A stretch of 64,000 bases of DNA from Oscillospiraceae bacterium. GTDB lineage: Bacteria > Bacillota > Clostridia > Oscillospirales > Oscillospiraceae. Shown here one piece after another: positions 1 through 15,163 of this stretch; within the stretch, counting starts at the first letter, position 1, and the number at the start of each line of letters is the position of its first letter. A program made the position numbers and the translations under genes. The notes beneath the pieces were generated by a model. The model was not told the DNA's origin. It made no database searches and saw only the letters and a program-made list of their open reading frames with translations. The DNA lies in NCBI GenBank assembly GCA_017458065.1, contig JAFTGD010000017.1, forward strand, positions 123,424 to 187,423, in the 5' to 3' direction.

Positions 1-591
1 GGTCAGCCACTTGTTGCGCATCCAGAGAAGCTTCTCCTCCCCGGCCGCGGCGGTGTTGACCGAGGGCAGCGCCTCGTTGGTCCCCTTCTCGAGGATGACC
101 AGGCAGCGGAAGCCCTCTTCCGTGACCCGGCAGGGGGCAAAGTGCAGCACCAGCGGGAAGACCTCGATCAGCACGCCCGCCGGCAGATAGAAGCCCACGA
201 CGTCCGCGCTGTCGAGCCTGCCGTCGTCCAGCTGCTCGGGCAGCGCCAGCAGCAGCACCGCGCCTGTCGTGGAGAAGTTGACCTCACTGCACTTGTGGTA
301 CTCCATGGCGTTAAGCCGGAAGCCGCGGCCGTTGCAGTAGCCCGCCTCGATGGGCATGTCGCCGAAGACGATGCGCTTCATGTCCTGCATGAGGGCCACT
401 TTCTCCAGCACCGGCTCGGACGCGTGGTAGCAGTTGCCCTGGTCCGGGATGGCGCAGGTGTCAAGCGCCTCTGCCAGCTCGCCGGTCTCAGCGGTGAGGA
501 CGCGCCCGTAGCGCTGAAACTCCGGGTCCAGAACGCTGTAGAGCGGCAGGGTGGGGTTCTTCCCGCGAAGCATTTCCAATACCTTATCCAT
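1..591 (-). CDS. DUF4867 family protein (3' end outside window)
   Basis: The reading frame starts with an ATG that overlaps the TAA of the ROK gene upstream by one base (TAATG) and is preceded by GGAGG, so it is probably translationally coupled to it. It runs off the window edge after about 197 residues. The translation has the family's typical landmarks as I recall them: an N-terminal YSVLDPEFQRYGR, a central MPIEAGYCNGRG followed by NAMEYHK, and LHFAPCRVTEEGFRC followed by KGTNEAL. No signal peptide or membrane segment is seen, so it should be cytoplasmic. DUF4867 has no established reaction; members sit in sugar-catabolic clusters. Its place as last gene of the sulfoquinovose arm suggests an auxiliary step on the sugar (for example epimer or anomer handling), but that is inference. 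Confidence 0.8.
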   Translation of the reverse strand, partial: MDKVLEMLRGKNPTLPLYSVLDPEFQRYGRVLTAETGELAEALDTCAIPDQGNCYHASEPVLEKVALMQDMKRIVFGDMPIEAGYCNGRGFRLNAMEYHKCSEVNFSTTGAVLLLALPEQLDDGRLDSADVVGFYLPAGVLIEVFPLVLHFAPCRVTEEGFRCLVILEKGTNEALPSVNTAAAGEEKLLWMRNKWLT

Positions 592-1811
592 TACCTGATA
601 CCTCCATTGTCAATAAAGTTCTGAACAGCCAGCAGACCGGCTGCCCGGTCTTCAAGCTGCTGATTGTACTTGCTCTTTTCAATGATCACATCGTGCCGGG
701 CATCGACGCCCTCCTGCAGCTCGCTGACGAGCCGTGAGAGGTAGTAGTGGTCCTCAAACAGGCTGCCGTACAGAACGATCTTGCCCGGGTCCACCAGGTA
801 GATCACCGCCTTGATGGCCGTGCCCAGCGCCTGGATCGCCCGGTCCACGATGGCGGAAGCGCCCTCGTCCCCGTTGCTGGCCGCGGCGAACACGTCGAAC
901 ACGCTGAGGCTGTCCGTATCCCGGTCCCGGTACTTTCTCCACAACAGGGGCGTCTCCTTCTCCGAGAGCAGGGCAATCGCGTCCTCCCGGATGGAGCCGG
1001 GCGAGGCGATGGTCTCGAGGCAGCCGCTTTTCCCGCAGTGGCAGGGCTTGCCGCCCCGCCGGATCACCGGGATGTGGCCGATCTCGGCGCACTGCGCGGT
1101 CACACCGTGCCAGATCCTGCCGTCGATGGAGAGCGCCGCGCCGATGCCGTAGCCGCAGCGGAGAAAGAACTGGGAGCCGGAGTTCTCGTCCCGGGAGACA
1201 AACATCTGCGCTGCAAAAAGCGAGCGGACGTTGTTCTCCAGCACCGTGGGGAAGCCCGTCAGCTTCTCAAACTCCTCGCACAGCGGATAGTCCGTCTCCG
1301 CCAGCGCGCCGAAGCTGTTGCGCACGGTGCGCCCGTCTTCCGAGGTGATGCCGCGCACCGCAACCCCGAGGCCGACGACAAGCTCCCGGTCGATGCCGTG
1401 CTCCTCCATCTGTCTCAAAAGCCGCTCGGAGAGCATCTTCGCCGTCTCTGCCGCCGGCGCTTTTGCCTGCAGCGGGACCTCTTCCGAAAAGATCACCCGT
1501 CCGTCCAGCCACACCGCCGACAGAATAGCCTGTCTGAGGTTAATCAGGACGCCGAGGCCGCAGGCGACCTCGCTGTTGAGATCGATGAGGATCTCGCGGC
1601 GTCCGGCGCCGCTGCTGGAGAGCATCTCCCCCTCCGAGAGCAGCCCGTCGGCGATCATCTCGCCGACGATTTTTGTGATGGCGGCAGGGGTCAGGTTCAT
1701 GTTCTCTGCCAGGCGCTTGCGCGACATAGCGCCCTTCTCGTGCAGGATCCGCAGCGCCGCGCTCCGGTTGCTGCGCTTCACACTCATCAGGTTATCGCCT
1801 TTGTATGACAT
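591..1811 (-). CDS. ROK family transcriptional regulator
   Basis: The 406-residue protein has an N-terminal winged-helix region (about residues 10-75, MSRKRLAENMNLTPAAITKI) followed by a ROK domain. The ROK zinc motif CHCGKSGCLE is present near residue 260, preceded by the EIGHIPV signature. This is the NagC/XylR/Mlc architecture, a sugar-responsive repressor or activator rather than a free sugar kinase. The chosen ATG has an AAGGGG ribosome site at good spacing; an internal ATG eight codons later is a weaker alternative. It lies within the left arm of the sulfoquinovose cluster, between the EamA transporter and the DUF4867 gene, and is the obvious candidate regulator of both arms. Its effector (SQ, sulfofructose or a glycoside) cannot be read from sequence. 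Confidence 0.92.
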   Translation of the reverse strand: MSYKGDNLMSVKRSNRSAALRILHEKGAMSRKRLAENMNLTPAAITKIVGEMIADGLLSEGEMLSSSGAGRREILIDLNSEVACGLGVLINLRQAILSAVWLDGRVIFSEEVPLQAKAPAAETAKMLSERLLRQMEEHGIDRELVVGLGVAVRGITSEDGRTVRNSFGALAETDYPLCEEFEKLTGFPTVLENNVRSLFAAQMFVSRDENSGSQFFLRCGYGIGAALSIDGRIWHGVTAQCAEIGHIPVIRRGGKPCHCGKSGCLETIASPGSIREDAIALLSEKETPLLWRKYRDRDTDSLSVFDVFAAASNGDEGASAIVDRAIQALGTAIKAVIYLVDPGKIVLYGSLFEDHYYLSRLVSELQEGVDARHDVIIEKSKYNQQLEDRAAGLLAVQNFIDNGGIR

Positions 1812-1829
1812 GAAACACCCCTTTCCCTT

Positions 1830-1860
1830 ATACTAATATCTGCTTATCAGGTATTGGTAT
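1830..1860. promoter_or_regulatory. Candidate operator before the ROK gene
   Basis: In the 83-base gap between the EamA and ROK genes, ATACTAATA and TATTGGTAT form an inverted repeat with one mismatch and a 13-base spacer, just upstream of the ROK ribosome site. AT-rich imperfect palindromes of this kind are typical ROK-regulator targets, so autoregulation is plausible. I see no convincing -35/-10 pair here. Confidence 0.35.
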
Positions 1861-1894
1861 TAGATTTGCTCTGTTGCTCTCTTCCGATTAACAT

Positions 1895-2809
1895 TTACGA
1901 TTCACGGGCCGGTCTTCCGCTGTGGTTGATGCGCCCACGCTGCAGGATGACCGCCGCGCCGGCCAGCACCACCAGGATGCCCAGCAGCTTCTTTGTCGTC
2001 AGTTCCTCATTCAGGAAGAACACCCCGATAAAGCAGCTCAGCACCGGCATCAGCAGCAGGTACAGCTTGACCAGCCAGACCTCAAAGTGCCTGAGGTTGC
2101 GGTAGTAGAAGAAATAGATCCCCGTCTGGGCAAGGCCCCCCAGCACCACCAGCCACCAGAAGCCGCCGCCCATATCCTGCGGGATACGGAACTCCCCGCG
2201 CAGCGCAGCGCTGCAGCCGAAGAGGATCAGCACCACGGCGTTGTTGTAGTAGGAGATCATATCCGCGTCCTCATGGTACTTCTCCTGCGCCGCCTTGATG
2301 ATAAAGGCGTTGGCGCTGACGCAGGCCGCCGAGAGAAGGAAGTAGAGATCCGTCACATGCAGCGTCATCCCGCTGAAGTCCACCCCCAGCACCAGCAGAA
2401 CGCCGCCGAGCATGATGGCGGTGCCGAGCCAGTCGGAGATGTAGAGCTTTTTGCGGTAGATGATCACGGTTGCGAGGTTCACCATCAGGACGTCCGTCTT
2501 CAGAAGCGCGGTCCCCGTGCTGAGAGAGCCGCCCGCATAACCGAGATTGGCAAACAGGTCCAGCAGGAAGCCGAATACACCGATCAGCAGCAGAATCCGG
2601 ACCGCTTTGCCCTGGTGGAACAACCGGCTGAAGTTCCTGTCCGCCAGCAGCTGGACCGTCAGGAAGACCAGCGCCGCCGAGCGCAGGAGAAAGCCTGCCA
2701 TCCTCGCCGACCCGGTCGCGTCCACCACGATCTTGCTGACCGCGTAATAGATCGACCAGGAGACCACCATCCCGATGACCATCAGGGTATATTTCAGATC
2801 TTCTTTCAT
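1895..2809 (-). CDS. EamA/DMT family transporter
   Basis: About 304 residues with ten predicted hydrophobic segments in two repeated halves, the drug/metabolite transporter layout. The first half ends near the helix ending LVLGVDFSG and the second half ends with the helix pair around LSCFIGVFFLNEELTTKK, where the short EE loop before the last helix is typical of EamA domains. The start is set at an ATG six bases after the alcohol dehydrogenase stop; a TTG two codons earlier is possible. Family members export small metabolites. Because the pathway encoded by its operon is predicted to end in isethionate, which such fermenters must excrete or pass on, this is the best exporter candidate in the cluster. 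That role is inferred from position only. Confidence 0.85.
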   Translation of the reverse strand: MKEDLKYTLMVIGMVVSWSIYYAVSKIVVDATGSARMAGFLLRSAALVFLTVQLLADRNFSRLFHQGKAVRILLLIGVFGFLLDLFANLGYAGGSLSTGTALLKTDVLMVNLATVIIYRKKLYISDWLGTAIMLGGVLLVLGVDFSGMTLHVTDLYFLLSAACVSANAFIIKAAQEKYHEDADMISYYNNAVVLILFGCSAALRGEFRIPQDMGGGFWWLVVLGGLAQTGIYFFYYRNLRHFEVWLVKLYLLLMPVLSCFIGVFFLNEELTTKKLLGILVVLAGAAVILQRGRINHSGRPARES

Positions 2810-2815
2810 CGCCAA

Positions 2816-3913
2816 TCAGGCGAGTTTTTCAAACATCTCCCGCAGGGATGCTTCACTCATTTTCACGGGGTTGTTGTTCATCAGGCCGTGGACCGCGCAG
2901 TCGTGCGCCAGCTTGTCCAGGTCGACTTCGCCAAGGTCGCTGAGTCTGCTGCGGAGGCCCGCCAGCTTCTTGAGCGCGGCGATACGCTGCGCCAGCTCCT
3001 CGGTCCCCGAGAGCCCGACTCTGCGGCACAGAAGCTCCAGCCGCTCGTCGGCGTTGATGCGCACAAAGCTGTCCAGCGTAAAGGCGCAGGCTTCGCCGTG
3101 GGGCAGATGATAGTCCTCGGACAGCGGGTAGCTGCAGGCATGGCAGCCGGCCGTCTTCGGCAGGGCAAAGCTCAGGCCGCCCAGCAGGGAGGCATAGGCC
3201 ATGTTGGCGCGCGCTTCCAGGTTGCCGCCGTCGGTATAGGCGGTCTCCAGGTTCTCCAGGATCGTGCGGACGGCTTCGATCGCCATCAGGTCCGAGATGG
3301 GCTGGTGATTCTTGCTCCAGTAGCCCTCCAGCGCGTGCGCCATGGCGTCCAGGCCGGTGTTCATGGTCGTGCGGGGCGGGACCGTGCTGCTGAGCACCGG
3401 GTCCACGATGGCCACCTTCGGCATGAAGACGGGGTTGTTGATGGTCTTCTTCTCGGTCTCATGGCTGATGACGGAAACCTGGGTCACCTCGCTGCCGGTG
3501 CCGGCGGTGGTCGGGACTGCGATGATGGTCAGGCGCTCGGCCGGGAAGGGCTTCTCCCCGTGGTAGTACTCGATGGCTTCGCCGTCGCCGAGGGCGATGG
3601 CCGCGGCAAACTTTGCCGTGTCGATGGCGCTGCCGCCGCCGATGCCGATGACGGCGTCCGCTTTGGTCTCACGGGCGAGACGGGCAGTCTCCGCCACACC
3701 GGAGAGCTGCGGGTTCTGTTCCACACCGCCGAACACCGCGACGATGCGGCTGTCCTGCTCCTGCATGGCCTTCGCCGTGGGGGCAAAGTGCTTCCCGCAG
3801 GCGATCACGCAGCGCTGCAGGCCCAGCTCATCCAGGACTTCGCCCAGCTTTGCAAACTTTCCCTCACCGAAATAAATCTTGACCGGCTGGGAATAGACAA
3901 AATCATGCGCCAT
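2816..3913 (-). CDS. Iron-type alcohol dehydrogenase, predicted sulfoacetaldehyde reductase
   Basis: A 365-residue group III (Fe-dependent) alcohol dehydrogenase. The N-terminal Rossmann-like half contains the dinucleotide motif GIGGGSAIDTAK and TTAGTGSEVT. The C-terminal half carries the metal ligands: DAMAHALEGY (Asp and His) and a later CHACSYPLSEDYHLPHG block (two His). The start is the ATG overlapping the rpiB-like stop by 11 bases; a longer open frame upstream is only read-through into that gene. In the sulfoglycolytic transketolase pathway an enzyme of this family reduces sulfoacetaldehyde to isethionate with NADH, and every other pathway enzyme is in this cluster, so that substrate is the best guess. 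A generic butanol/ethanol dehydrogenase role cannot be excluded from sequence. Confidence 0.88.
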   Translation of the reverse strand: MAHDFVYSQPVKIYFGEGKFAKLGEVLDELGLQRCVIACGKHFAPTAKAMQEQDSRIVAVFGGVEQNPQLSGVAETARLARETKADAVIGIGGGSAIDTAKFAAAIALGDGEAIEYYHGEKPFPAERLTIIAVPTTAGTGSEVTQVSVISHETEKKTINNPVFMPKVAIVDPVLSSTVPPRTTMNTGLDAMAHALEGYWSKNHQPISDLMAIEAVRTILENLETAYTDGGNLEARANMAYASLLGGLSFALPKTAGCHACSYPLSEDYHLPHGEACAFTLDSFVRINADERLELLCRRVGLSGTEELAQRIAALKKLAGLRSRLSDLGEVDLDKLAHDCAVHGLMNNNPVKMSEASLREMFEKLA

Positions 3914-4379
3914 AGATGTTCGCCTCGATCTCGCTGACCTTGGCCGCAAACTTGTGCATGTTGGCAGCGCGCCAGTCTTCCAGATCCTGGCACCAGTCGG
4001 TGGCGAGGAAGGTCTTCACCATCTCGACGGCCATCTCGGGTCCGACGATCCAGCCGCCCATGCAGAGGACATTGGCGTTGTTGATGGCGCGGGCCATCTT
4101 GGCGGAGTAAACGCCCTCGCAGGCGACGGCGTAGACGCCCTTGTACTTGTCGGCGACGACGGATATGCCGGCGCCGGTACCGCAGATGAGGACGGCCTTG
4201 TCATAGGTCCCGTTCTGCACCAGAGGCGCGACTTCGCTTGCGACCTGGTAATAGGGATGCACCTGCTCGAGGTCGGTGGTGCCGAGGTCGTCAAACTCGA
4301 CGCCCGCTTCGGTCAGGTATGCCTTGATGGCTTCTTTGGCGGAAAATCCGGATTTATCGCTTCCGATTGCAATTTTCAT
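3903..4379 (-). CDS. RpiB/LacAB family isomerase, predicted 4-deoxy-4-sulfoerythrose isomerase
   Basis: The 158-residue protein is full length for the RpiB/LacAB fold. The active-site block ICGTGAGISVVADK (Cys66) is intact. The N-terminal motif, normally SDHAG or SDHA in ribose-5-phosphate isomerase B, here reads SDKSG (Lys9-Ser10), so the conserved His is missing. That change fits a substrate other than a phosphorylated pentose. The gene sits between a split transketolase and an iron alcohol dehydrogenase, the order expected for aldose-ketose conversion of 4-deoxy-4-sulfoerythrose to the erythrulose in the sulfo-transketolase route. A tetrose-phosphate isomerase (EryI-like) is the main alternative. 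Confidence 0.87.
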   Translation of the reverse strand: MKIAIGSDKSGFSAKEAIKAYLTEAGVEFDDLGTTDLEQVHPYYQVASEVAPLVQNGTYDKAVLICGTGAGISVVADKYKGVYAVACEGVYSAKMARAINNANVLCMGGWIVGPEMAVEMVKTFLATDWCQDLEDWRAANMHKFAAKVSEIEANIYGA

Positions 4380-4401
4380 GATCTGTTCTCCTCATTCATA
4401 A

Positions 4402-4428
4402 AAATACCCCGCCCCGCAGAGGGGCGGG
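4402..4428 (-). terminator. Intra-operon hairpin with U-tract between transketolase and rpiB-like genes
   Basis: CCCGCCCC and GGGGCGGG form an 8-bp GC stem with a 5-base loop; read on the minus strand it is followed by TATTTTTATG. It lies inside the operon, so it probably causes partial termination, lowering expression of the downstream genes relative to transketolase. Confidence 0.6.
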
Positions 4429-4443
4429 ATTTGGTGTTCTGGG

Positions 4444-5367
4444 TTACTTCAGGCTCAGCGCCTTCTTCGCGCCGGCGATGATGTTCTCAACCGTGAGGCC
4501 GGTAACCTCGCGCAGGTACGGAAGCTTGCCGACTTCGCCGAAGCGGTCCTGTACGCCGACGGCGACCACGGGGATCTTCTCCTCGGCAAGGGCTTCCAGA
4601 ACGGCGGACTGCAGGCCGCCGATGACATTGTGGTTCTCCACCGTCAGGACCGTGCCGGTCTTGCGGGCGGAGGCGACGACGGTCTCCCTGTCGATGGGCT
4701 TGATGGTGTGGACATTGACGATCTCGGCGTCGACGCCTTCCTCGGCCAGCTGCTTTGCAGCGGTCACGACATCGGCCGTCAGCATGCCGCTGACAAAGAT
4801 CGTGAGGTCCTTGCCCTCTTTGATGGTGTCGGCCTTAAACAGGTCGAACTTGTAGCCCTCTTCAAAGACCTTCGGCAGTTCCTTGCGGAAGAGGCGGACA
4901 TAGACCGGTCCGTCATAGTCGTTCAGCACGGGCATGGCAGCGCGGAGCTGGACCTCGTCCACCGGCTCAAAGATCACGATACCCGGGATGGAGCGCATAA
5001 CGCCGATGTCTTCCATGCTCATGTGGGTGCCGCCGTTGAGCTCAGCCGCAATGCCGGGATCGGTGCCGACGATCTTCACATTGCGCTTGGCATAGACGAT
5101 CGAGATGGCAACCTGGTCGCAGATGCGGCGGGTGGCAAACGGGGTGAAGCTCTCGATCCAGGGCTTGAAGCCATAGCTGGAGAGACCGGCAGCGATGGAG
5201 GCCATGTCCTGCTCGGCAACGCCGCAGTCAAAGCTCTGCTCGGGGAACTTGGCGCGCAGGCCCAGCGTGCCGCTGGCCTTGCCCAGGTCGGCGTCCAGGA
5301 CGACGACGTGCTTGTCTTTTTCCATCAGCTCCGCGAGGCACGCGGCATAAACAGCTCTCATTTCCAT
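4444..5367 (-). CDS. Transketolase, C-terminal subunit (pyrimidine-binding and C-terminal domains)
   Basis: 307 residues covering the pyrimidine-binding domain (DADLGKASGT, then CGVAEQDMASIAAGL with the cofactor-activating Glu in the AEQ motif) and the C-terminal transketolase domain (HTIKPIDRETV, VENHNVIGGLQ). It starts three bases after the N-terminal subunit; the GGAGGAC ribosome site lies in the last codons of that gene, so the two are coupled and made in equal amounts. Split transketolases are common in Clostridia. In the sulfo-transketolase pathway the enzyme moves C2 units from 6-deoxy-6-sulfofructose, and then from 4-deoxy-4-sulfoerythrulose, to glyceraldehyde-3-phosphate, giving xylulose-5-phosphate. 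The dedicated location in this cluster supports that role over a housekeeping pentose-phosphate role. Confidence 0.93.
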   Translation of the reverse strand: MEMRAVYAACLAELMEKDKHVVVLDADLGKASGTLGLRAKFPEQSFDCGVAEQDMASIAAGLSSYGFKPWIESFTPFATRRICDQVAISIVYAKRNVKIVGTDPGIAAELNGGTHMSMEDIGVMRSIPGIVIFEPVDEVQLRAAMPVLNDYDGPVYVRLFRKELPKVFEEGYKFDLFKADTIKEGKDLTIFVSGMLTADVVTAAKQLAEEGVDAEIVNVHTIKPIDRETVVASARKTGTVLTVENHNVIGGLQSAVLEALAEEKIPVVAVGVQDRFGEVGKLPYLREVTGLTVENIIAGAKKALSLK

Positions 5368-5370
5368 GGA

Positions 5371-6198
5371 TTAGTCCTCCCCTCTGATTTCACGGATGGC
5401 AGCCTCGGCCTGCTCCTCGCTGACCGGGCAGTTGTGGTTGCCGGAACCGAGATCCTCGATCCACTTGACGCCGCAGCCCTTCAGGGTGTTGAGGATGATC
5501 ATGGTCGGCTTGCCGCTGTCGCGGCCCAGCTTGGCATGCTCCACGGCCTTCTCCACCTGCTCGATGTCATTGCCGTCTTCCACGTCGATGACGTTCCAGC
5601 CGAAGGCCGCCCACTTCTCCGCGAGAGGCGCAATGTCGTTGACCTCGGCAACGGTGCCGTCGATCTGCTGCTTGTTGTAGTCGGTAAAGGCGATGAGGTT
5701 ATCCAGCTTCTTGGCGGCAGCGAACATGGCCGCTTCCCAGATCTGGCCTTCCTGGCTCTCACCGTCGCCGATCATGGCATAGATGGTCGCGCCGTCCTTC
5801 TCAAGCTTCGAGCCCAGCGCCACGCCTACCGCGCAGCTGAAGCCCTGGCCGAGAGAACCGGTGGTCATGTCGATGCCGACGGTGCGGTTCATGTCGCAGT
5901 GGGACGGAAGATTGGTGCCGCCCTGATTGAGGGTGAGCAGCTCCTTCTTGTCAAAATAGCCGCGGTTGGCCAGCGTCGCGTAGACGGCGGGGCCGGCGTG
6001 ACCCTTGGAGCAGATGAAACGGTCACGGCCTTCCATCTTCGGGTTCTTCGGGTCGATGTTCATTTCCTTAAAATAAAGAACGGCCAGCGCCTCTACCACG
6101 GACAGGCAGCCGCCGATGTGGCCGACGCCCAGGTGCCCGATGCAGGTCATGATATCACAGCGGATATCTTTGCAGACTTCTTTCAGATCATAGCTCAA
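5371..6198 (-). CDS. Transketolase, N-terminal subunit (thiamine diphosphate-binding domain)
   Basis: 275 residues forming the pyrophosphate-binding half of transketolase. Visible landmarks are CIGHLGVGHIGGCLS near the N-terminus, the substrate-pocket CSKGHAGPA, TGSLGQGFSCAVG and the thiamine diphosphate-Mg motif GDGESQEGQIWEA (GDG..E). It is first in the left-arm operon, directly behind a consensus promoter. It needs the next gene product to make an active heterotetramer. The substrate inference is given under the C-terminal subunit. The Cys-rich N-terminus is unusual, but I attach no function to it. Confidence 0.93.
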   Translation of the reverse strand: MSYDLKEVCKDIRCDIMTCIGHLGVGHIGGCLSVVEALAVLYFKEMNIDPKNPKMEGRDRFICSKGHAGPAVYATLANRGYFDKKELLTLNQGGTNLPSHCDMNRTVGIDMTTGSLGQGFSCAVGVALGSKLEKDGATIYAMIGDGESQEGQIWEAAMFAAAKKLDNLIAFTDYNKQQIDGTVAEVNDIAPLAEKWAAFGWNVIDVEDGNDIEQVEKAVEHAKLGRDSGKPTMIILNTLKGCGVKWIEDLGSGNHNCPVSEEQAEAAIREIRGED

Positions 6199-6261
6199 TG
6201 TTATGTCCTCCTCCTTTAGTCTTTTTCTGAACAGTTGATTGATGATTGGAAAAACGCATCG

Positions 6262-6285
6262 GAAGCTTGATTTGATTAAAGCTTC
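6262..6285. promoter_or_regulatory. Candidate operator: GAAGCTT...AAGCTTC inverted repeat
   Basis: Perfect 7-bp arms with a 10-base spacer lie just downstream of the left-arm promoter's predicted start point. A repressor bound here would block the transketolase operon. It does not resemble the palindrome found before the binding-protein gene, so if both are operators they may not share one regulator. Confidence 0.35.
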
Positions 6286-6297
6286 TAACTAATGCAC

Positions 6298-6326
6298 AGT
6301 GTAGCCTTTTTCATTCTGTTTGTCAA
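6298..6326 (-). promoter_or_regulatory. Promoter of the left (transketolase) arm
   Basis: On the minus strand TTGACA, a 17-base spacer and TACACT form a good vegetative promoter about 100 bases before the transketolase start. It is divergent from the isomerase promoter 57 bases away, so both arms can share control sites. Confidence 0.75.
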
Positions 6327-6382
6327 TAGAAGTTTTGGTTTTCCCGTAAAATTGTCTCTCCCCTGCCGCCTGAAAATTGAAC

Positions 6383-6411
6383 TTGACAGTTTGGGTATAA
6401 AACGCTATGAT
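6383..6411 (+). promoter_or_regulatory. Promoter of the right (isomerase) arm
   Basis: TTGACA, 17 bases, TATGAT, with an AGGAGG ribosome site 25-30 bases further on, directly before the isomerase ATG. This is a near-consensus vegetative promoter and implies a short 5' leader. Confidence 0.8.
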
Positions 6412-6449
6412 AAGTTCACAGCGTTAAGTAATTTTTAGGAGGTACTCTC

Positions 6450-7787
6450 ATGAGCTTCTGTTCTGTGTATATTCCGGTGGGCGTCCCCACCTATCACCTG
6501 GAGACCGCCCAGGACCAGTTTGAACGTTCCTGCGCCATGCTCCGCAGCGTGGACGCGGACGTTGTCTGCCCGGACGAGATGCTGCTGACCATCGACAAGC
6601 TGCGCGCTTATCTGGAGGGATTGAATCCGGACCTGATCGTCTTTCAAAATCTGACCTTTGCCAACGCGGCCTACATGGCGGAGGTGCTCCGCCGGTATCA
6701 GTGCCCGGTGCTGCTCTGGACCCTGCGCGAGCCGGTCATCGACGGCGGCCGTCTCCGCCTCAACTCGCTGACCGGGGCTTACTCCGCCGCCAATACGCTT
6801 GCCGCCTTTGACGGCCGCGCCTTCAACTGGTGCTTCGGCGCCCCGGAGGAAGAGTCCGTTGTCGCCGCCGTGAAGGCCACCGTGGAAGCGGCCAGAGTCA
6901 AAAAGGCCATGCGCAGCCTCACGATGTCCGCCATCGGCCATACGCCTCAGGGCTTCGGTTTCGGCCGTGCGCTGGACAGCGAGCTGATGAACACCTTCGG
7001 CGTGGAGCTGGAGTCTATCGAAGCCCGCGAGCTCATTGACATGGCAAAGACCTACACCGACGAAGAATGCGCGGTGTATCTGCGTGAAACCGAGAACGTC
7101 ACCTGCGGTCTGGACCGGACCCCTGAGAAGAACAAGCTGGACCACGCCCGTCTGCTGAAGGCCTATTCCGATTACGTGAGCACCCATCACATCGGCGCCC
7201 TGGCCTCCCGCTGCTGGCCCGACTTCTTCACCTCCTTCGGCACGCCGGTCTGCACCGTGCTCAGCATGCTGAATGACAAGGGCGTTGCCGCCGCCTGCGA
7301 GGCGGACATCTACGGCGCGCTCTCCATGTGGATCGGCATGCAGCTGAGCCATGAGCCCGTCTTCTTCGGCGATCCGGTCGCCATGGACGAAGCCGAAAGC
7401 AGCATCACCTACTGGCACTGCGGTGCCGCCGCCTGCAGTCTCGCCCGCCGGGACACCGGCGCGGTCGTCGGCGTGCATCCCAACCGCAAGATCGGCCCCG
7501 CGATGGACTTCGGCTGCGAAGCCTTCCCGGAAGCCACTGTCTTCCGCATCGGGCGTAAGCCGGACGGCAGCTTCCGCTTCTTTGTGGCGGAGGGCTCGGT
7601 CCTGGATAAGCCCAAGCAGTTCATCGGCACTTCCATCGTAGTAAAGACCGACCGCAGCAGCCGCGAGGTCGTCGAGGACAGCATCCGCGCCGGCTTTGAG
7701 CCCCACTTTGCCGTCATCAAGGGCCGTCACGCCGAGACGCTGAAGGTCCTGGCTGAGATGTTCGGCTTTGAAGTCTGCCGCTACTGA
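6450..7787 (+). CDS. L-fucose/L-arabinose isomerase family protein, predicted sulfoquinovose isomerase
   Basis: The 445-residue protein has the fold of the FucI/AraA ketol-isomerase superfamily: an N-terminal substrate/cofactor half (PDLIVFQNLTFANAAYMAE), a middle segment and a C-terminal barrel half with ESSITYWHCGAAACSLAR. Members use a divalent metal, usually Mn, to interconvert aldoses and ketoses. The start has a perfect AGGAGG site. It is the first gene of the arm that also encodes the sugar importer and the sulfoquinovosidase, and it is divergent from the transketolase operon. An isomerase of this type (SqvD in the literature, as I recall) turns sulfoquinovose into 6-deoxy-6-sulfofructose, which is the predicted reaction here. 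Arabinose or fucose isomerisation is unlikely because no ribulokinase or fuculokinase is nearby. Confidence 0.87.
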   Translation: MSFCSVYIPVGVPTYHLETAQDQFERSCAMLRSVDADVVCPDEMLLTIDKLRAYLEGLNPDLIVFQNLTFANAAYMAEVLRRYQCPVLLWTLREPVIDGGRLRLNSLTGAYSAANTLAAFDGRAFNWCFGAPEEESVVAAVKATVEAARVKKAMRSLTMSAIGHTPQGFGFGRALDSELMNTFGVELESIEARELIDMAKTYTDEECAVYLRETENVTCGLDRTPEKNKLDHARLLKAYSDYVSTHHIGALASRCWPDFFTSFGTPVCTVLSMLNDKGVAAACEADIYGALSMWIGMQLSHEPVFFGDPVAMDEAESSITYWHCGAAACSLARRDTGAVVGVHPNRKIGPAMDFGCEAFPEATVFRIGRKPDGSFRFFVAEGSVLDKPKQFIGTSIVVKTDRSSREVVEDSIRAGFEPHFAVIKGRHAETLKVLAEMFGFEVCRY

Positions 7788-7793
7788 TCCTGT

Positions 7794-8417
7794 ATGAAAA
7801 AGTCACGGATCTCCGAGGCCCTGTCCGGACTGATCGACCTGATTGTCGCCGGGCTTCTCTGGCTGCTGTGCTCTCTGCCTGTTGTCACAATCGGCGCAGC
7901 ATCGACGGCGCTGTATTACGCCGTGAACAAGTGCGTCCGTCATAACCGCGGCCGTCTCACCCCGACCTTCTTCTCGGGCTTCCGGTCCAACTTTCGCCAG
8001 GCTACCGTTCTCTGGCTTCTGTTCCTTGCTTACGCCGCGGTCGGCGCCGCGGATGCCTATGCGATCCGGACGATGGGCTTCGGTCCCGGAACCGTTCTCC
8101 ACAGTCTCAGCATTCTTTTCTTCCTTCCGCTGCTTTTCTTCTTCCCCTGGGTGTTCGCCTTTCTCTCCCGTTTTGAAAACACTGTCGCGGGGACGCTCAA
8201 GTTCTGCGGCTGGCTGGCGCTGCGCTATTTCGGCAGAACGCTTCTGCTCGCGCTGGAGCTTGCAGGCTTTCTCCTGATCGTCTGGCTGCTTCCTTCCCTG
8301 CTTCCGCTTCTCCCCGCGGCATTCTGCCTCATGATGAGTCTCTCCATCGAGCCGGTTTTCAAAACGCTTCAGCAGGATCTGCCGGACGGGAATGCCGACA
8401 CCTGGTATAACGAATAG
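7794..8417 (+). CDS. YesL/DUF624 family membrane protein
   Basis: 207 residues with an N-terminal basic patch and about five hydrophobic segments. The family signature at the start (DLIVAGLLWLLCSLPVVTIG followed by TALYY) is clear. YesL proteins are found beside ABC sugar importers of the CUT1 type in Firmicutes, where their exact role is not settled; assistance to the transporter is usually assumed. It follows the isomerase by only six bases, so the two are co-transcribed and probably coupled. Confidence 0.88.
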   Translation: MKKSRISEALSGLIDLIVAGLLWLLCSLPVVTIGAASTALYYAVNKCVRHNRGRLTPTFFSGFRSNFRQATVLWLLFLAYAAVGAADAYAIRTMGFGPGTVLHSLSILFFLPLLFFFPWVFAFLSRFENTVAGTLKFCGWLALRYFGRTLLLALELAGFLLIVWLLPSLLPLLPAAFCLMMSLSIEPVFKTLQQDLPDGNADTWYNE

Positions 8418-8510
8418 TATCGTCTGTCTGTGATGGATTCCGAACTGCAGCGGCGGAGATCCTCCGGAAGAATCTTCAAAATGAATCCGAAACAACCGAA
8501 TCCGGTCTTG

Positions 8511-8539
8511 TTGACATCACCCCGATCTTGTGGTATAAA
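8511..8539 (+). promoter_or_regulatory. Strong upstream promoter before the binding-protein gene
   Basis: TTGACA, exactly 17 bases, TATAAA, in the 407-base gap after the YesL gene. It would give the importer genes their own transcript with a long leader of nearly 300 bases. Confidence 0.65.
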
Positions 8540-8711
8540 CAAAAACATACTAAATCATTCCTTTAATAGGAATATGGAAAGCGCCGTCTGCTTCGATGTT
8601 AAAATCCCGCACAAAAAAGCGGCCGTATGAATCCAGCCCGGCAGCTTGTTTTTGTTCAAATTGCCCAATTTCGGGGTGGAAAAATCTACAGATCCCACAA
8701 GGCGGAAGTCC

Positions 8712-8740
8712 TTTACAAACGTACACTTTCCCGGTATAAT
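8712..8740 (+). promoter_or_regulatory. Second, proximal promoter before the binding-protein gene
   Basis: TTTACA, 17 bases, TATAAT, about 85 bases before the binding-protein ATG. With the distal promoter this gives the importer tandem promoters. The rest of the gap holds no credible gene; a short frame at 8430-8630 has neither a ribosome site nor family features. Confidence 0.75.
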
Positions 8741-8775
8741 TAGGTTTGTGGCCGGAAGGCTATGATTTATGTGTA

Positions 8776-8798
8776 ATTAATTAACATTGTTAATTAAT
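8776..8798. promoter_or_regulatory. AT-only palindrome, candidate repressor operator
   Basis: ATTAATTAAC and GTTAATTAAT form perfect 10-bp arms around ATT, centred about 45 bases downstream of the proximal -10 box and just before the AAAAGGAG ribosome site. Position in the early transcribed region suits a roadblock repressor, with the ROK protein of this cluster the likely ligand. Confidence 0.55.
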
Positions 8799-8824
8799 GA
8801 ATAAAAACAAAAAGGAGAACAAAC

Positions 8825-10093
8825 ATGAAAAAGCTTTTATCCCTGTCGCTTGTCTTGATCATGATCATCGCCCTTGCTGTCCCCGCTTATGCAGCAAATG
8901 ACGAAATCATCATCAACTTCCCCAGTGTCTGGGTCGGCACCGACTCCAAGGCCCCTTACATGGAGCAGCTGATTGAAGCCTTCAACGCCGAAAACGCCGG
9001 CTCCATCAAGGTTGTCGTGGAAGAGCAGACCGACTATCAGGCCGCGCGCGACAAGCTGCGCACCACCATCACCACCGGTGAGACTCCTGACCTCTGCATC
9101 ATGGACACCACCTACGACATCAAGGGTTATTCCGAAGCAGGCAAGTTCATGGATCTGACCCCGTACCTGGACGAAGGCTGGGGCGACGATTTTGCCGAAG
9201 GCGCCTTTGACGCCTGGAGTGTGGACGGAAAGGTCTACGCGCTGCCCTTCGAATCCGCAATCTTCACACCGATCTATAACACCAAGATCTTTGCCGAGAT
9301 CGGCTGGGACCACTTCCCCGCCACCTATGACGAGTTCTTCCAGTTCTGCGAAGACGCCAAGGCCAAGGGCATCAACGCTGTTGGCCAGATGGCCGGTGAA
9401 AACGCCTGGACCTCCATGCTCTGGTACTCTCTGATTGTCGAAGCCATCGGCGGCAAAGACGTCTATGCCAACGGTCTTGAAGATCCCGCTTTTGTTCAGG
9501 CTGCCGACGTGCTGAAGGCGATGTATGACTACACCTTCGACGGCGCCATCTCCGCCGGTGCCGGCGATGTCAACGGCCACTGGCTTGCCCGTGACACCGC
9601 CATCTACCTGAACGGTCCCTGGTGGGTTGCCAACCTCTACAAAGAAGACAATGCCGTTGACGGCGTTCTCCTCGCGGACGACTGCGAAGTCGCGCTCAAC
9701 CCCGTCTATGAAGGCGGCAAGGGCGAAGGCGGTCTCGTGACCACCGTTCAGGCTTTCCTCGCAGCTGCCAAGCAGGACGATCCTGCCAAGGAAGAAGCTG
9801 TTGTCAAGTTCATCAAGTACATCACCGATCCTCAGCACGTCTCTGAGCTTGCGCTCTCTTCCGGCGCCATGTTCTTTGTGAAGTACGATCCGTCCCCCGA
9901 AACCAACCTGATCTCCCAGAAGCTGACGGAAGTCGCGAACAATGCCGATTTCTCCATCCTGCATGTCAACGGCGCATTCCCGACCGCAGTCTCCACCGAG
10001 TTCCCCGCCGCGGTCTCCGCGCTGGTCCTCGGCGAAGTTGACGCTCAGGGCTTTGTGGATCAGCTCCAGCTCGCCATCGATATGGCCGCATAA
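8825..10093 (+). CDS. ABC transporter sugar-binding protein (family 1), predicted SQ/SQ-glycoside binder
   Basis: 422 residues. An N-terminal signal peptide (MKKLLSLSLVLIMIIALAVP, cleavage after AYA) is followed by a mature family 1 solute-binding protein with the expected NAENAGSIKV start and PFESAIFTPIYNTKIF hinge region. There is no lipobox Cys, so the protein would be released by signal peptidase I rather than lipid-anchored, unusual for a Gram-positive importer. Two permease genes follow, and a sulfoquinovosidase after them, so the ligand is probably sulfoquinovose or its glycerol glycoside. No ATPase gene is in the operon; an MsmX-like shared ATPase encoded elsewhere is required. Confidence 0.88.
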   Translation: MKKLLSLSLVLIMIIALAVPAYAANDEIIINFPSVWVGTDSKAPYMEQLIEAFNAENAGSIKVVVEEQTDYQAARDKLRTTITTGETPDLCIMDTTYDIKGYSEAGKFMDLTPYLDEGWGDDFAEGAFDAWSVDGKVYALPFESAIFTPIYNTKIFAEIGWDHFPATYDEFFQFCEDAKAKGINAVGQMAGENAWTSMLWYSLIVEAIGGKDVYANGLEDPAFVQAADVLKAMYDYTFDGAISAGAGDVNGHWLARDTAIYLNGPWWVANLYKEDNAVDGVLLADDCEVALNPVYEGGKGEGGLVTTVQAFLAAAKQDDPAKEEAVVKFIKYITDPQHVSELALSSGAMFFVKYDPSPETNLISQKLTEVANNADFSILHVNGAFPTAVSTEFPAAVSALVLGEVDAQGFVDQLQLAIDMAA

Positions 10094-10108
10094 GCACAAG
10101 TTTTCCCG

Positions 10109-10135
10109 ACAGGGTGCGGCTTTCCCGCACCCTGT
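10109..10135 (+). terminator. Hairpin after the binding-protein gene (attenuator)
   Basis: ACAGGGTGCGG and CCGCACCCTGT form an 11-bp perfect stem with a 5-base loop, followed by TTGATTTTG. Such a hairpin between binding protein and permease genes reduces read-through and protects the upstream mRNA, giving excess binding protein. Confidence 0.65.
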
Positions 10136-10160
10136 TTGATTTTGTAAAGGAGGTAGCTCA

Positions 10161-11072
10161 GTGAAACTGGAACGCTCTGATCGGGCACCATTGTGGGCCT
10201 TTATGACTCCGGCTCTGGTCCTGATGCTCGTCTTTTTTGTGCTTCCTGTGATCTATGTTATCGTCATCAGCTTCATGAAGTGGAACGGGATCAACACGCC
10301 CGCGTTTGTCAACCTCAGAAACTTTATGCTCCTGTTCCGTGACAAGGCCTTCAAGCGCTCTGTCATCAACAACGTGATCTGGGCTCTGGTGGCCGGTTTT
10401 ATTCAGGTTCCCCTCGCCATGATCATGGCGATCATCCTCTCCCGCAAGCCGAAGGGCTGGAAGTTTTTCCGGACGGTCTACTTCTTCCCGCAGGTGATTT
10501 CCGGTATCGCCCTGGCAACGCTGTGGCGTGCCATCTACCGTGCGGATACCGGTCTTCTCAATGCCCTTCTCAACTCTGTCGGGCTCGGCCATCTTGCAAA
10601 AGACTGGCTTGGCACCCTGAGCACCGCTTTCCCTTCCGTTTTGATTTACTGGATCTTCTATGTGGGCTATTACATGGTCATCATGATGGCGGATATCACC
10701 ACCATCGACGACTCGTACTATGAAGCCGCCACCATAGACGGTGCCACTGATTTTCAGCAGGCGATCTATATTACCATTCCGTTGATCAGAAAAACCTCGC
10801 TGCTCACCTGTGTGACTCTGGCAAGCGTCATGGGCCTTCGCCAGTTCGAGCAGGTTTACATGCTCACCAACGGCGGACCGGCGAACTCCACATCCACCAT
10901 CGTGCTGTATATGTACAAGAAGCTGCAGGATGCCAACTATGGCATGGCCAGCGCATCGGCCGTCATTCTGATCATCATCGGCGTAGTCTTCATCGTCTGC
11001 ATCCGCAAGATTTTTGAAGGCCGCAATGAAGAGGCCGCAGCGCTGAAGAAAGCAGGGAGGGCAGCCGGATGA
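10161..11072 (+). CDS. Sugar ABC transporter permease (MalF/UgpA type)
   Basis: 303 residues with six predicted transmembrane segments. The permease-ATPase contact (EAA) loop is visible as YEAATIDGATDFQQAI near residue 190. The start is GTG, supported by an AAGGAGG site. CUT1-type importer inner-membrane subunit; it pairs with the next gene, which it overlaps by four bases. Substrate is inferred from the operon (sulfoquinovose or glycosides). Confidence 0.92.
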   Translation: MKLERSDRAPLWAFMTPALVLMLVFFVLPVIYVIVISFMKWNGINTPAFVNLRNFMLLFRDKAFKRSVINNVIWALVAGFIQVPLAMIMAIILSRKPKGWKFFRTVYFFPQVISGIALATLWRAIYRADTGLLNALLNSVGLGHLAKDWLGTLSTAFPSVLIYWIFYVGYYMVIMMADITTIDDSYYEAATIDGATDFQQAIYITIPLIRKTSLLTCVTLASVMGLRQFEQVYMLTNGGPANSTSTIVLYMYKKLQDANYGMASASAVILIIIGVVFIVCIRKIFEGRNEEAAALKKAGRAAG

Positions 11073-11929
11073 GTGAAACAAGAGTGCGCGCTCCCCTGCA
11101 CGGCAAGGATCTGGTTCTTGCGGTTCTGCGCTGGATCCTGATTATCTTCTTTGCGGTCTACACCCTGTTCCCCCTGATCTGGCTGTTCATCGCGTCTCTG
11201 AAGACAAACTACGAGTTCCTCGCAGACTCCCCCTTCTCGCTCCCCGCTGTTCCGCAGTGGCAGAACTATGTGAACGCGCTGAAAGTCGCGGGACTGGGCA
11301 GAATGCTTCTGAATTCTGTCATTGTCGGCGTTGCCGCCACCGTCTTCAATGTGATTGTCGCCAGCATGAGCGGTTACTGCATGTCCCGCTTCCGCTTTAA
11401 CGGAAGAGAGCAGCTGTTCACGCTCTTTACAGCCGGTATTCTGGTGCCTCTGAATGCGCTGATGGTTCCGTATTTCGTGATCATCAACAAGCTTGGGCTC
11501 TATAACACCTACGGCGGCATGATTCTTCTCTACTGTGCCATCGGCATTCCGATGTCCACCTTCCTGATCCGCGGTCTGATGGATTCGATCCCCATGGAGC
11601 TGGAAGAGGCTGCCTACATCGACGGCTGCGGCTTCTTCGGGCGTTTCTTCCACATCATTCTGCCGCTCAGCCGTACCGGCATCGTCACCGCCGCCACCTT
11701 TGAGTTCCTCACCTGCTGGAACGAATTTGTTTTTGCCAACCTCATCGTCTCCTCGGAAAAGCTCCGTACCATTCAGGTCGGTATCCGCTATTTCACCAAC
11801 CAGTTTTCTACGGACTATGTTTCGATGTACGCTGCGATCATGATCTCGATCATCCCTTCGATTATCGGGTATGTCCTCTTCCAGGAACAGATCATCAGCG
11901 GCATGACCAGCGGAGCCGTGAAAGGATAA
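11069..11929 (+). CDS. Sugar ABC transporter permease (MalG/UgpE type)
   Basis: 286 residues with six predicted transmembrane segments and the EAA loop LEEAAYIDGCGFFGRFF near residue 180. Its ATG overlaps the stop of the first permease (ATGA), so the two subunits are translationally coupled. The sulfoquinovosidase gene follows after ten bases. It forms the membrane channel of the predicted SQ importer. Confidence 0.92.
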   Translation: MSETRVRAPLHGKDLVLAVLRWILIIFFAVYTLFPLIWLFIASLKTNYEFLADSPFSLPAVPQWQNYVNALKVAGLGRMLLNSVIVGVAATVFNVIVASMSGYCMSRFRFNGREQLFTLFTAGILVPLNALMVPYFVIINKLGLYNTYGGMILLYCAIGIPMSTFLIRGLMDSIPMELEEAAYIDGCGFFGRFFHIILPLSRTGIVTAATFEFLTCWNEFVFANLIVSSEKLRTIQVGIRYFTNQFSTDYVSMYAAIMISIIPSIIGYVLFQEQIISGMTSGAVKG

Positions 11930-11939
11930 ACATCAGACT

Positions 11940-13940
11940 ATGCTCGATTTTCAAACTGAAAACGGACAGTACCGGCTGTTTTATAACGGCCGGTTGCTGT
12001 TGTCTCAAAGCAGGGATTTCCCGATGCTCTTCGCAGGCTGCGGAGAGGAATCGGTCGATATGTACCGCGGCAACTTTAAAATAGAGGACTATGTGACCGA
12101 GCGCCGTGCGCTGGCGGTGAGCGCCGTGCAGGAGCAGCCCGACGGACTCCTCGTCGAATACGGAGAGGATCTGAAGCTTCGGATCACCGTCGACGGCGAC
12201 TGCGCCGTTTTGTCCTTTACTCAAAAGAATCCGGCCATCAACCGGCTGTGGCTCCGCATCCCGGCCGAGAAAGACGAATGCTGCTGGGGTTGCGGCGAGC
12301 AGATGTCCTACTTTAACCTCCGCGGCAGGCACTTCCCGCTCTGGACCTCCGAGCCCGGCGTCGGCCGGGACAAGACCACCTATGTGACCTGGCGCTCGGA
12401 CGTGGAGAACAGGGCTGGCGGCGATTACTACAACACCAACTTCCCCCAGCCGACCTTTGTCTCCAGCCGACACTACTACCTGCACGCGGATACCACCGCC
12501 TATGCGGATTTTGATTTCCGTCATCCCGCTTTCCATGAACTGCAGTTCTGGGAGGTCCCTTCTTCCATCCGGATTGAGGCCGCGGATACCTTCCTCGATC
12601 TGCTGAAGAAAGAGAGCGCCTTCTTCGGCCGCCAGCCTGAGCTTCCGGACTGGATCTACAACGGTCTCATCATCGGCGTTCAGGGTGGCAGCGAGCGCTC
12701 CTTCGGTCTGCTGGAGAAGACCCTGCAGCACAACATCCGGGTCGCCGGCGTCTGGTGTCAGGACTGGTGCGGCAAGCGTGTCACCTCCTTCGGCAAGCGC
12801 CTGCAGTGGGACTGGCACTTCCATCCGGAAATGTACCCCGATCTCCCTGCGGAGATCGAAAAGCTCCACGCCCGGGGAATCCGCTTCCTGGGCTATATCA
12901 ACCCTTATCTGGTTGAGGGCGGAGAACTCTATCAAAAAGGTCTCGGGGCCGATGTTTTCGCCCGCCGCTCCGACGGCAGTGTCTATCTGGTCGATTTCGG
13001 CGAGTTCAGCTGCGGCGTCATCGATCTCACCGATCCGAAGGCCTATAACTGGTTCAAAGACGAGGTCATCAAAAAGTACAGCCTGGAGATCGGCATCGAC
13101 GGCTGGATGGCGGACTTCGGGGAGTACCTTCCGACGGACGACATCATCCTTCACAGCGGCAAGAGCCCGATGATGGAGCACAACCACTGGCCTGCGCTTT
13201 GGGCAAAGTGCAACTACGACGCGGTCTCCGAATCCGGCAAGCTCGGCGAGGCGGTCTACTTCATGCGCGCCGGCTTTACCGGCAGCCAGAAGTACTGCAC
13301 CCTGCTCTGGGCCGGCGACCAGAGTGTGGACTTCTCCCGCCATGATGGGCTCTGCACTGTCATCTGTGCCGCGCTGAGCGCGGGGATGAGCGGCTGTGGC
13401 CTGACCCACAGCGACATCGGCGGCTACACCAGCCTCTTCGACAACACCCGTACGAAGGAAGTCTTTCTCCGCTGGGCCGAGATGAACGCCTTCACCCCGG
13501 TCATGCGTACCCACGAGGGCAACCGCCCGGACACCAACTTCCAGTATTACGACGATGAGGACTGCATGCAGCGCCTTGCCCGTCTGGCGGAGATCCACAC
13601 GGCTCTCTCCCCCCTGCTGAAAGCGTTGGTGAAGGAGAATGCCGCATCCGGCGTCCCGGTGCAGCGCCCGCTTTTCCTGCATCATGAGGACGATCCCCGC
13701 TGCTACACCGAGCAGTTCGAGTACCTCCTCGGCGAGGACGTACTGGTGGCCCCGGTATGGAAAGCGGGACAGACCGAGTGGCCGGTCTATCTTCCTGAGG
13801 GCGACTGGATCCATCTCTGGACCGGCAAGTCCTTCGGCAAGGGCGAGCACACGGTCCCCGCGCCGCTGGGCAGCACGCCTGTCTTCTATCGGAAGGATTC
13901 CCGCTGGGCCGGGCTGATGGCAGAGGTCAGCCGGCTCTGA
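11940..13940 (+). CDS. GH31 sulfoquinovosidase (YihQ type)
   Basis: 666 residues, full length for GH31. The catalytic pair is present: nucleophile Asp392 in MADFGEYLP and acid/base Asp460 in WAGDQ. Residues that read the sulfonate in E. coli YihQ (Gln288, Arg301, Trp304, Tyr508 from memory) are matched by Gln274 in CQDW, Arg287 and Trp290 in GKRLQW, and Tyr496 in SDIGGYT, at conserved spacing. Ordinary GH31 alpha-glucosidases lack this set. It should hydrolyse alpha-sulfoquinovosyl glycerol (or the diglyceride) to SQ and glycerol. No signal peptide is seen, so the enzyme is intracellular and the importer must carry the glycoside. It is the last gene of the right arm. Confidence 0.93.
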   Translation: MLDFQTENGQYRLFYNGRLLLSQSRDFPMLFAGCGEESVDMYRGNFKIEDYVTERRALAVSAVQEQPDGLLVEYGEDLKLRITVDGDCAVLSFTQKNPAINRLWLRIPAEKDECCWGCGEQMSYFNLRGRHFPLWTSEPGVGRDKTTYVTWRSDVENRAGGDYYNTNFPQPTFVSSRHYYLHADTTAYADFDFRHPAFHELQFWEVPSSIRIEAADTFLDLLKKESAFFGRQPELPDWIYNGLIIGVQGGSERSFGLLEKTLQHNIRVAGVWCQDWCGKRVTSFGKRLQWDWHFHPEMYPDLPAEIEKLHARGIRFLGYINPYLVEGGELYQKGLGADVFARRSDGSVYLVDFGEFSCGVIDLTDPKAYNWFKDEVIKKYSLEIGIDGWMADFGEYLPTDDIILHSGKSPMMEHNHWPALWAKCNYDAVSESGKLGEAVYFMRAGFTGSQKYCTLLWAGDQSVDFSRHDGLCTVICAALSAGMSGCGLTHSDIGGYTSLFDNTRTKEVFLRWAEMNAFTPVMRTHEGNRPDTNFQYYDDEDCMQRLARLAEIHTALSPLLKALVKENAASGVPVQRPLFLHHEDDPRCYTEQFEYLLGEDVLVAPVWKAGQTEWPVYLPEGDWIHLWTGKSFGKGEHTVPAPLGSTPVFYRKDSRWAGLMAEVSRL

Positions 13941-15079: not shown

Positions 15080-15163
15080 GTTGTGTTTCCTCCTTTTGTG
15101 TTTGCGGAATTGAATATAGGGAATCAAGTCCGGGCCTTTGCCCGGCACTTCATTCTCGACAGA

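Follow-up and report, generated by a model that had tools for sequence, protein, structure and literature searches.

Gene content and conservation of the cluster

Sulfoquinovose (SQ) is the sulfur sugar of green-plant membranes. Here we describe a conserved and nearly complete gene cluster for its fermentation by the sulfoglycolytic transketolase (sulfo-TK) route, located at the left end of a 64,000-nucleotide stretch of DNA from an Oscillospiraceae bacterium (henceforth referred to as the window, G000:C72:123424-187423; source genome 3.6 Mb, 83 contigs). The cluster genes are intact frames within window positions 1-13940, on which the open reading frame (ORF) listing, Pfam, NCBIfam and a codon-usage gene caller agree (Table 1). 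They form two divergent operons separated by 251 bases. The rightward operon encodes an isomerase, a YesL protein, the solute-binding protein and two permeases of an ATP-binding cassette (ABC) importer and a GH31 glycosidase, and the leftward operon encodes the N- and C-terminal subunits of a split transketolase, an RpiB-like protein, an iron-containing alcohol dehydrogenase (Fe-ADH; start best placed at 3913 by the codon-usage caller), an EamA transporter, a ROK regulator and a DUF4867 cupin. An earlier note on this DNA, made from the letters alone, had called the cluster complete. The genes that it named are intact and in place, with two reservations: the DUF4867 gene (222 amino acids at full length) extends beyond the left edge of the window by its last 78 bases, and no ABC ATP-binding subunit was found with Pfam among the 13 cluster genes scanned. 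To the left of DUF4867 lie a convergent gene of the fumarylacetoacetase family and then frames resembling, by eye, a symporter, proA and proB, and we therefore place the left boundary after DUF4867. On the right, the GH31 gene converges with TAXI-TRAP transporter genes (window 14120-17140), which were rejected as cluster members as neither protein exceeded 60 bits in 80 related loci.

Table 1. Features of the cluster and of the region between its operons (window coordinates)
Feature	Position	Strand	Evidence
DUF4867, SftX/SqvB-type cupin	1..591	-	PF16161 E 6e-58
ROK-family regulator, winged-helix N-terminus	591..1811	-	PF00480 E 3e-37, PF01047
EamA/DMT membrane transporter	1895..2815	-	PF00892 E 9e-29
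Iron-containing alcohol dehydrogenase, putative SqwF-type sulfoacetaldehyde reductase	2816..3913	-	PF00465/PF25137
RpiB-like protein, putative SqwI-type 4-deoxy-4-sulfoerythrose isomerase	3903..4379	-	PF02502
Split transketolase C-terminal subunit (SqwH)	4444..5367	-	PF02779/PF02780; A31, D103 replace Ser, His
Split transketolase N-terminal subunit (SqwG)	5371..6198	-	PF00456 E 4e-49
Candidate ROK operator TTTGATTAAA-N5-TAACTAA	6271..6292	.	exact in window
Sigma-70-like promoter, leftward operon, TTGACA-17-TACACT	6298..6326	-	consensus scan 10/12
Sigma-70-like promoter, rightward operon, TTGACA-17-TATGAT	6383..6411	+	consensus scan 11/12
Sulfoquinovose isomerase, SftI/SqvD type	6450..7787	+	NF048012 E 3e-114, 382 bits; PF02952
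YesL/DUF624 membrane protein, MusI-like	7794..8417	+	PF04854 E 3e-15; NF052431 102 bits (cut-off 160)
ABC solute-binding protein	8825..10093	+	PF13416, PF01547
ABC permease 1	10161..11072	+	PF00528
ABC permease 2	11069..11929	+	PF00528
GH31 alpha-sulfoquinovosidase, YihQ type	11940..13940	+	NF007746 968 bits (cut-off 553)

Conservation was assessed in the best 80 of 495 confirmed related stretches, obtained from a scan of species genomes for which 11 aligned isomerases served as the query, and each gene was counted among loci with enough flank. Genes in the relatives were called with the codon-usage caller trained on the window genes; longest-frame calling was dropped because of the many antisense frames at this G+C, and loci L173-L175 were read by tblastn instead (L173 and L174 also by ORF listing). 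On the opposite strand to the left of the isomerase we find the transketolase N (69/70) and C (65/66) subunits, the RpiB-like gene (62/63), Fe-ADH (54/59), EamA (50/57), ROK (37/52) and DUF4867 (30/51). With these divergent left-side genes kept in most related loci that could be counted, the arrangement is not a product of chance. On the same strand to the right, YesL is present in 24/66 loci, GH31 in 25/53 and the solute-binding protein in 16/52, so the right half of the window is common to a minority only. The host animals named in titles of related loci are cattle, goat, sheep, buffalo, yak and roe deer. Within the genus, an isomerase piece of at least 66% identity occurs in 38 of 61 genomes, two of them, by hand count, only as pieces of fewer than 140 residues; at 50% identity or more, the isomerase occurs in 4 of 391 genomes sampled from the class, the window's own included.

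Residue signatures and the sulfo-TK route

Among solved structures the window GH31 matches six at 813-1105 bits, compared to at most 155 bits for other GH31 proteins. Its top matches are 6pnr (1105 bits), 8r56 (891 bits) and YihQ (5aed, 815 bits), and four of the six are named YihQ or sulfoquinovosidase, 6pnr and 8r56 bearing general names. The protein holds Asp392 and Asp492 (catalytic) together with Arg287, Trp290 and Tyr496, a sulfonate clamp that we take to be the equivalent of R301, W304 and Y508 of YihQ. The sole NCBIfam match of the isomerase is the SQ isomerase model SftI (NF048012); none of the fucose or arabinose isomerase models matched it in the NCBIfam scan, and sequence search returned no relative among solved structures. 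The split transketolase fits an R-A-F-D-R signature through R4, A31, D103 and R158, with F74 as our guess for the Phe. A change from RSFHR to RAFDR is the published signature of sulfofructose transketolase (PMC11659671). At the phosphate-contacting Ser position, 71 of 74 cluster C subunits have Ala, and at the His position all 73 readable copies have Asp (the plus-strand paralogues L111, L114 and L124 were left out of this count), while the genome's other split C subunits number three: two carry Ser and His at these positions and the third carries Ala and Asn. The earlier note's YihQ-type GH31 with sulfonate-reading residues is thus supported by the solved YihQ matches and the kept clamp, and its isomerase and two-subunit transketolase of a sulfo-TK route by the NCBIfam match and the R-A-F-D-R signature.

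The RpiB-like protein was aligned with those of 68 related clusters (69 rows with the window) and read, with residue roles from PMC4783025 and PMC3212906, against a yardstick of three rows: the canonical RpiB encoded elsewhere in the same genome (C24), which has both His, a second copy (C45) and an E. coli chain fragment. The catalytic Cys base is retained in 68/68 readable rows. The phosphate His10 is Lys in all 69 rows, the ring-opening His99 is Ile and Arg109/113 is Trp in 67/67 readable rows each, and Arg133/137 is Glu; the protein does not carry the ring-opening His and phosphate His/Arg set of ribose-5-phosphate isomerase B. By chemical reasoning, 4-deoxy-4-sulfoerythrose has no C4 hydroxyl and would not close to a furanose, so that a ring-opening His would be needless. 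For a fungal RpiB with Ser at this position, shorter substrates have been suspected (PMC3212906), and direct measurement of SqwI was reported as hampered (PMC9594981). The altered active site supports the assignment to SqwI, short of proof. Neither name search returned a SqwI-named entry for this protein. The genome's second RpiB-like protein (L142:1423-2644), with Arg at the phosphate His, adjoins a frame labelled by eye as an IspD-like cytidylyltransferase.

The DUF4867 protein keeps the 2His-2Glu metal ligands E97, H99, E103 and H150, as do 32 of 32 rows with the window included, and a family member with such a metal site has been solved (PMC11968277). In that study 15 of 127 members of the DUF4867 network lie in sulfo-TK neighbourhoods, and mutarotase or kinase activity was not detected within the stated limits of the assay. 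In the 42 loci with a left flank of at least 9.5 kb and a right flank of at least 7 kb, DUF4867 accompanies 12/16 of those with a GH31 bearing Gln at the clamp Arg (Gln-type, see below), 7/17 Arg-type, 2/2 with both and 3/7 without a typed GH31, a co-occurrence that gives no test of the mutarotase idea. The importer is not self-sufficient, as no ATPase gene is among the cluster genes; an MsmK-like ATPase elsewhere in the genome (C63) is 80% identical to a relative's ATPase and is the best of six genome matches at E 1e-60 or better. The YesL protein would be a transporter accessory, and EamA is a candidate isethionate exporter; a drug/metabolite permease is present in the Faecalicatena cluster (PMC11659671). 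Four clusters (L033, L035, L037 and L059) hold the isomerase, transketolase and SqwI-like genes without Fe-ADH, and no clear substitute was seen by eye, the families of their neighbours not having been searched.

The SQ-isomerase match, the GH31 clamp, the R-A-F-D-R transketolase and the altered RpiB site lead us to conclude that the cluster very probably serves the fermentation of SQ and its glycosides by the sulfo-TK route, ending in isethionate. The reactions, transport directions, inducer and repression that we infer for this organism are as follows. The ABC importer, with a shared ATPase, would take in SQ or sulfoquinovosyl glycerol, and GH31 would then release SQ intracellularly. The SqvD/SftI isomerase would convert SQ to sulfofructose, perhaps helped by the DUF4867 cupin, and the split transketolase would pass a two-carbon unit to glyceraldehyde 3-phosphate, leaving 4-deoxy-4-sulfoerythrose. 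The latter would be turned into its ketose by the RpiB-like SqwI and cut a second time by the transketolase, giving sulfoacetaldehyde for reduction to isethionate by Fe-ADH and export by EamA. The ROK protein would bind its candidate operator, where the leftward operon begins, and repress until an inducer derived from SQ arrives.

Several observations weigh against this assignment. The isomerase scores below the NF048012 cut-off of 700 bits and the YesL protein below the curated cut-off of its NCBIfam model, and the NCBIfam matches of Fe-ADH are all under cut-off (PsrA best with 214 bits; SarD 179 bits, cut-off 700), its best named matches being enzymes for other substrates. The transketolase copies of L068, L074 and L075 retain the Ser. 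In the RpiB-like protein the Arg137/141 phosphate column is still Arg (67/67 readable rows, where the alignment has gaps), and the second RpiB-like copy is also altered, to Arg, at the phosphate His. There is no TauE gene in the cluster and one elsewhere in the genome, and the source assembly is fragmented (83 contigs, completeness 96.41, contamination 2.87). Among its grounds for refutation the earlier note had named best matches of two proteins to enzymes of non-sulfonated sugars. That of the isomerase is to SQ isomerase SftI; those of the RpiB-like protein are by name to ribose- and erythrulose-phosphate isomerases (RpiB models), though its residues argue against such a substrate.

Two variants of the route, one ending in sulfoacetate and one bifurcated between transketolase and transaldolase as in Faecalicatena and Caproiciproducens, have been published (PMC12890257, PMC11659671, PMC13219744), and we regard it as very unlikely that the window encodes such a variant. 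For a sulfoacetate end, the cluster has instead a reductase-type Fe-ADH, and neither an acylating dehydrogenase nor a CoA ligase occurs among the scanned cluster genes, to which the search for these two enzymes was confined. For a bifurcated route, the genome's only transaldolase-family match (L144:1456-3547) adjoins a glycyl-radical-enzyme-like frame and, by eye, lacks an NPRH stretch that two sulfo-TAL-like (transaldolase-type) clusters have in their SftT-like proteins. That the cluster serves instead to break down a rare sugar without a sulfonate group, by way of an isomerase, a transketolase and a pentose- or tetrose-phosphate isomerase, would agree with the names of the best RpiB-like and Fe-ADH matches and with the occurrence of DUF4867 in ordinary aldose/ketose clusters too (PMC11968277), but is hardly credible given the sulfonate clamp, the SQ-isomerase family match, the altered phosphate residues of both transketolase and RpiB-like protein and the lack of a separate sugar kinase among the scanned cluster genes, the ROK protein having a DNA-binding N-terminus.

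The sulfo-TK route ending in isethionate, which we prefer, is already published for Clostridia, Faecalicatena and rumen Candidatus (Ca.) Limivicinus, and the window cluster is a clean further example. The SqvD, SqwGH, SqwI and SqwF set, with SqwI and SqwF as putative assignments in the window, is common to the window and Clostridium sp. MSTE9 (Liu et al. 2021; via PMC9594981, PMC12890257, PMC11659671), which was found via YihQ-containing clusters and also has a DUF4867-type candidate mutarotase; the likeness is one of enzyme set, and the likely exporter differs, being EamA in the window and the sulfite/sulfonate transporter SqwE in MSTE9. The bifurcated cluster of Faecalicatena sp. DSM22707 (PMC11659671) shares with the window the isomerase, transketolase subunits of the same signature, SqwI and reductase candidates, a candidate mutarotase, a drug/metabolite permease, an ABC transporter and a repressor candidate; it has two transaldolases and a predicted NAD-dependent sulfoquinovosidase, whereas the window has neither and a GH31 sulfoquinovosidase instead. 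Ca. Limivicinus from cow rumen (PMC13219744) is likewise of the Oscillospiraceae and of the ruminant gut, and resembles the window in gene content, with a sulfo-TK route to isethionate, YihQ and SftX (DUF4867); the genus of the window is probably Ca. Limivicinus. With the DUF4867, the drug/metabolite permease and rumen Oscillospiraceae sulfo-TK clusters already in print, the earlier note's view of the arrangement as little described does not stand. Two bacteria with such genes, Faecalicatena and Caproiciproducens, have been reported to grow on SQ and to form isethionate, and in the rumen the sulfo-TK genes of Ca. Limivicinus, Caproiciproducens and Sphaerochaetaceae are transcribed, microcosms making isethionate from SQ (PMC13219744, 2026). 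A different combination is seen in L173 (G407), which by eye is like the sulfo-TAL type exemplified by Eubacterium rectale (PMC11968277): its isomerase, GH31 and DUF4867 are 63%, 71% and 41% identical to those of the window, and transaldolase-like and reductase-like frames stand where the window has transketolase, SqwI and Fe-ADH.

A candidate operator for the ROK regulator

The NagC and Mlc models of NCBIfam match the ROK protein far under cut-off. A candidate operator for it lies between the operons (Table 1), where a promoter scan of positions 6100-6550 gave two sites, one per strand, compared to 0.5 (sd 0.9) in shuffles. The operator pattern, with up to three mismatches allowed, occurs in 35 of 43 intergenic regions of ROK-bearing loci and in 0 of 13 of ROK-less loci, as well as in 9 of 20 whose flank is too short to judge ROK. 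Over all 76 intergenic regions, window included, it is found in 44, compared to 6 of 1520 letter-shuffled sequences. Two points weaken the operator: the pattern was derived from these same intergenic regions, so that some excess over shuffles follows from the way it was chosen, and the split by ROK gene is the sole independent test and is uncorrected for kinship. A first pattern with two TTGATTAAA halves was weaker (21/43 versus 0/13) and was replaced. The candidate operator sits at the predicted start of the leftward transcript, a position that would fit a repressor. It is a candidate addition to published knowledge and worth testing.

A second GH31 type in related loci

Many relatives have a GPH symporter and a YihQ-like GH31 with Gln and Phe in its clamp instead of an ABC importer and the canonical sulfoquinovosidase. 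In 59 GH31 rows of more than 400 residues (window included) the clamp Arg is Arg in 33 and Gln in 26, and the third clamp position is Tyr in 32, Phe in 25 and unread in two; 9 of 67 GH31 matches remained untyped. There are 53 loci with a right flank of at least 7 kb beyond the isomerase. A Gln-type GH31 is present in 22 of them, in 19 together with a GPH symporter gene (the protein passes the GPH model TIGR00792); 20 are Arg-type only, with a GPH symporter in two, both about 7 kb to the left of the isomerase, and 11 have no typed GH31. An example of the Gln type is L120:11485-13461 (minus strand), with 25 more rows among L061-L140, all having Gln and, where it could be read, Phe.

The Gln type resembles known sulfoquinovosidases as a whole. 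It is nearest to 8r56 (426 bits) and YihQ (417 bits), compared to 139 bits for other GH31, and it passes NCBIfam PRK10426 (614 bits, cut-off 553); as the window GH31 passes too, that model cannot separate the types. Six positions before the clamp Arg, Val, Ile or Leu is found in all 33 full-length Arg-type rows, whereas all 26 Gln-type rows of the first set have Arg or Lys. Among further Gln-type copies, L176-L181 have Arg and L182 has Ile at this position, and two from another family (L152 and L157, G207:C192), with Gln-Trp-Phe, have Ile and Val, so that overall 32 of 35 Gln-type copies have a basic residue upstream. The L152 and L157 genes lie about 6 kb apart, and G207 also has an isomerase with an adjoining Arg-type GH31.

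In the genus, a Gln-type GH31 (at least 60% identity to that of L120) occurs in 17 genomes, every one of which belongs to the 38 holding the isomerase, and in none of the 23 others, and a GH31 of either kind occurs in 34/38 genomes with and 0/23 without the isomerase (E 1e-60 or better, the Arg kind taken by 35-45% identity; kinship uncorrected). The link between GH31 and isomerase is not strict, as G061 and G085, of the same order outside the genus, encode a YihQ-like GH31 and gave no isomerase match. In another family, the L174 operon, which is sulfo-TAL-like, has a Gln-Trp-Tyr GH31 adjoining a GPH-like symporter, together with transaldolase-, reductase- and TauE-like frames and an isomerase (labels partly by eye). 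A GH31 tree of 35 rows (every second Arg- or Gln-type row, clamp columns removed; the outgroup is very long and drew a tool warning) has a branch (99) that sets the 13 Gln-type rows apart, with the L174 protein (L151) on the opposite side (92).

In the open-licence papers searched we did not find the Gln-Phe YihQ-like GH31 described; an altered sulfonate residue is known in a different family, GH188 (PMC11465081). The Gln type may have SQ glycosides as its substrates, or else a neutral glycoside, for instance a galactolipid headgroup. Our tentative and on balance doubtful proposal is that it is a second kind of sulfoquinovosidase, in most copies with the basic residue as a new anion contact, which would work with the GPH symporter and free SQ in many rumen sulfo-TK bacteria without the canonical form. 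The two Gln-Phe copies of another family without the basic residue lowered our already limited confidence in it slightly, and the moved anion contact is a weaker idea than the loss of the clamp itself.

Overall, the additions to the known pathway are the ROK operator candidate and, as the main lead, the module of GPH symporter and Gln-Phe GH31 in the relatives. SQ ranks among the most abundant organic compounds of sulfur, and the isethionate derived from it supplies hydrogen-sulfide formers of the gut (PMC11659671, PMC13219744). SQ fermenters without a known sulfoquinovosidase have been noted (PMC13219744), and the altered GH31 and GPH module bears on how such bacteria get their SQ.

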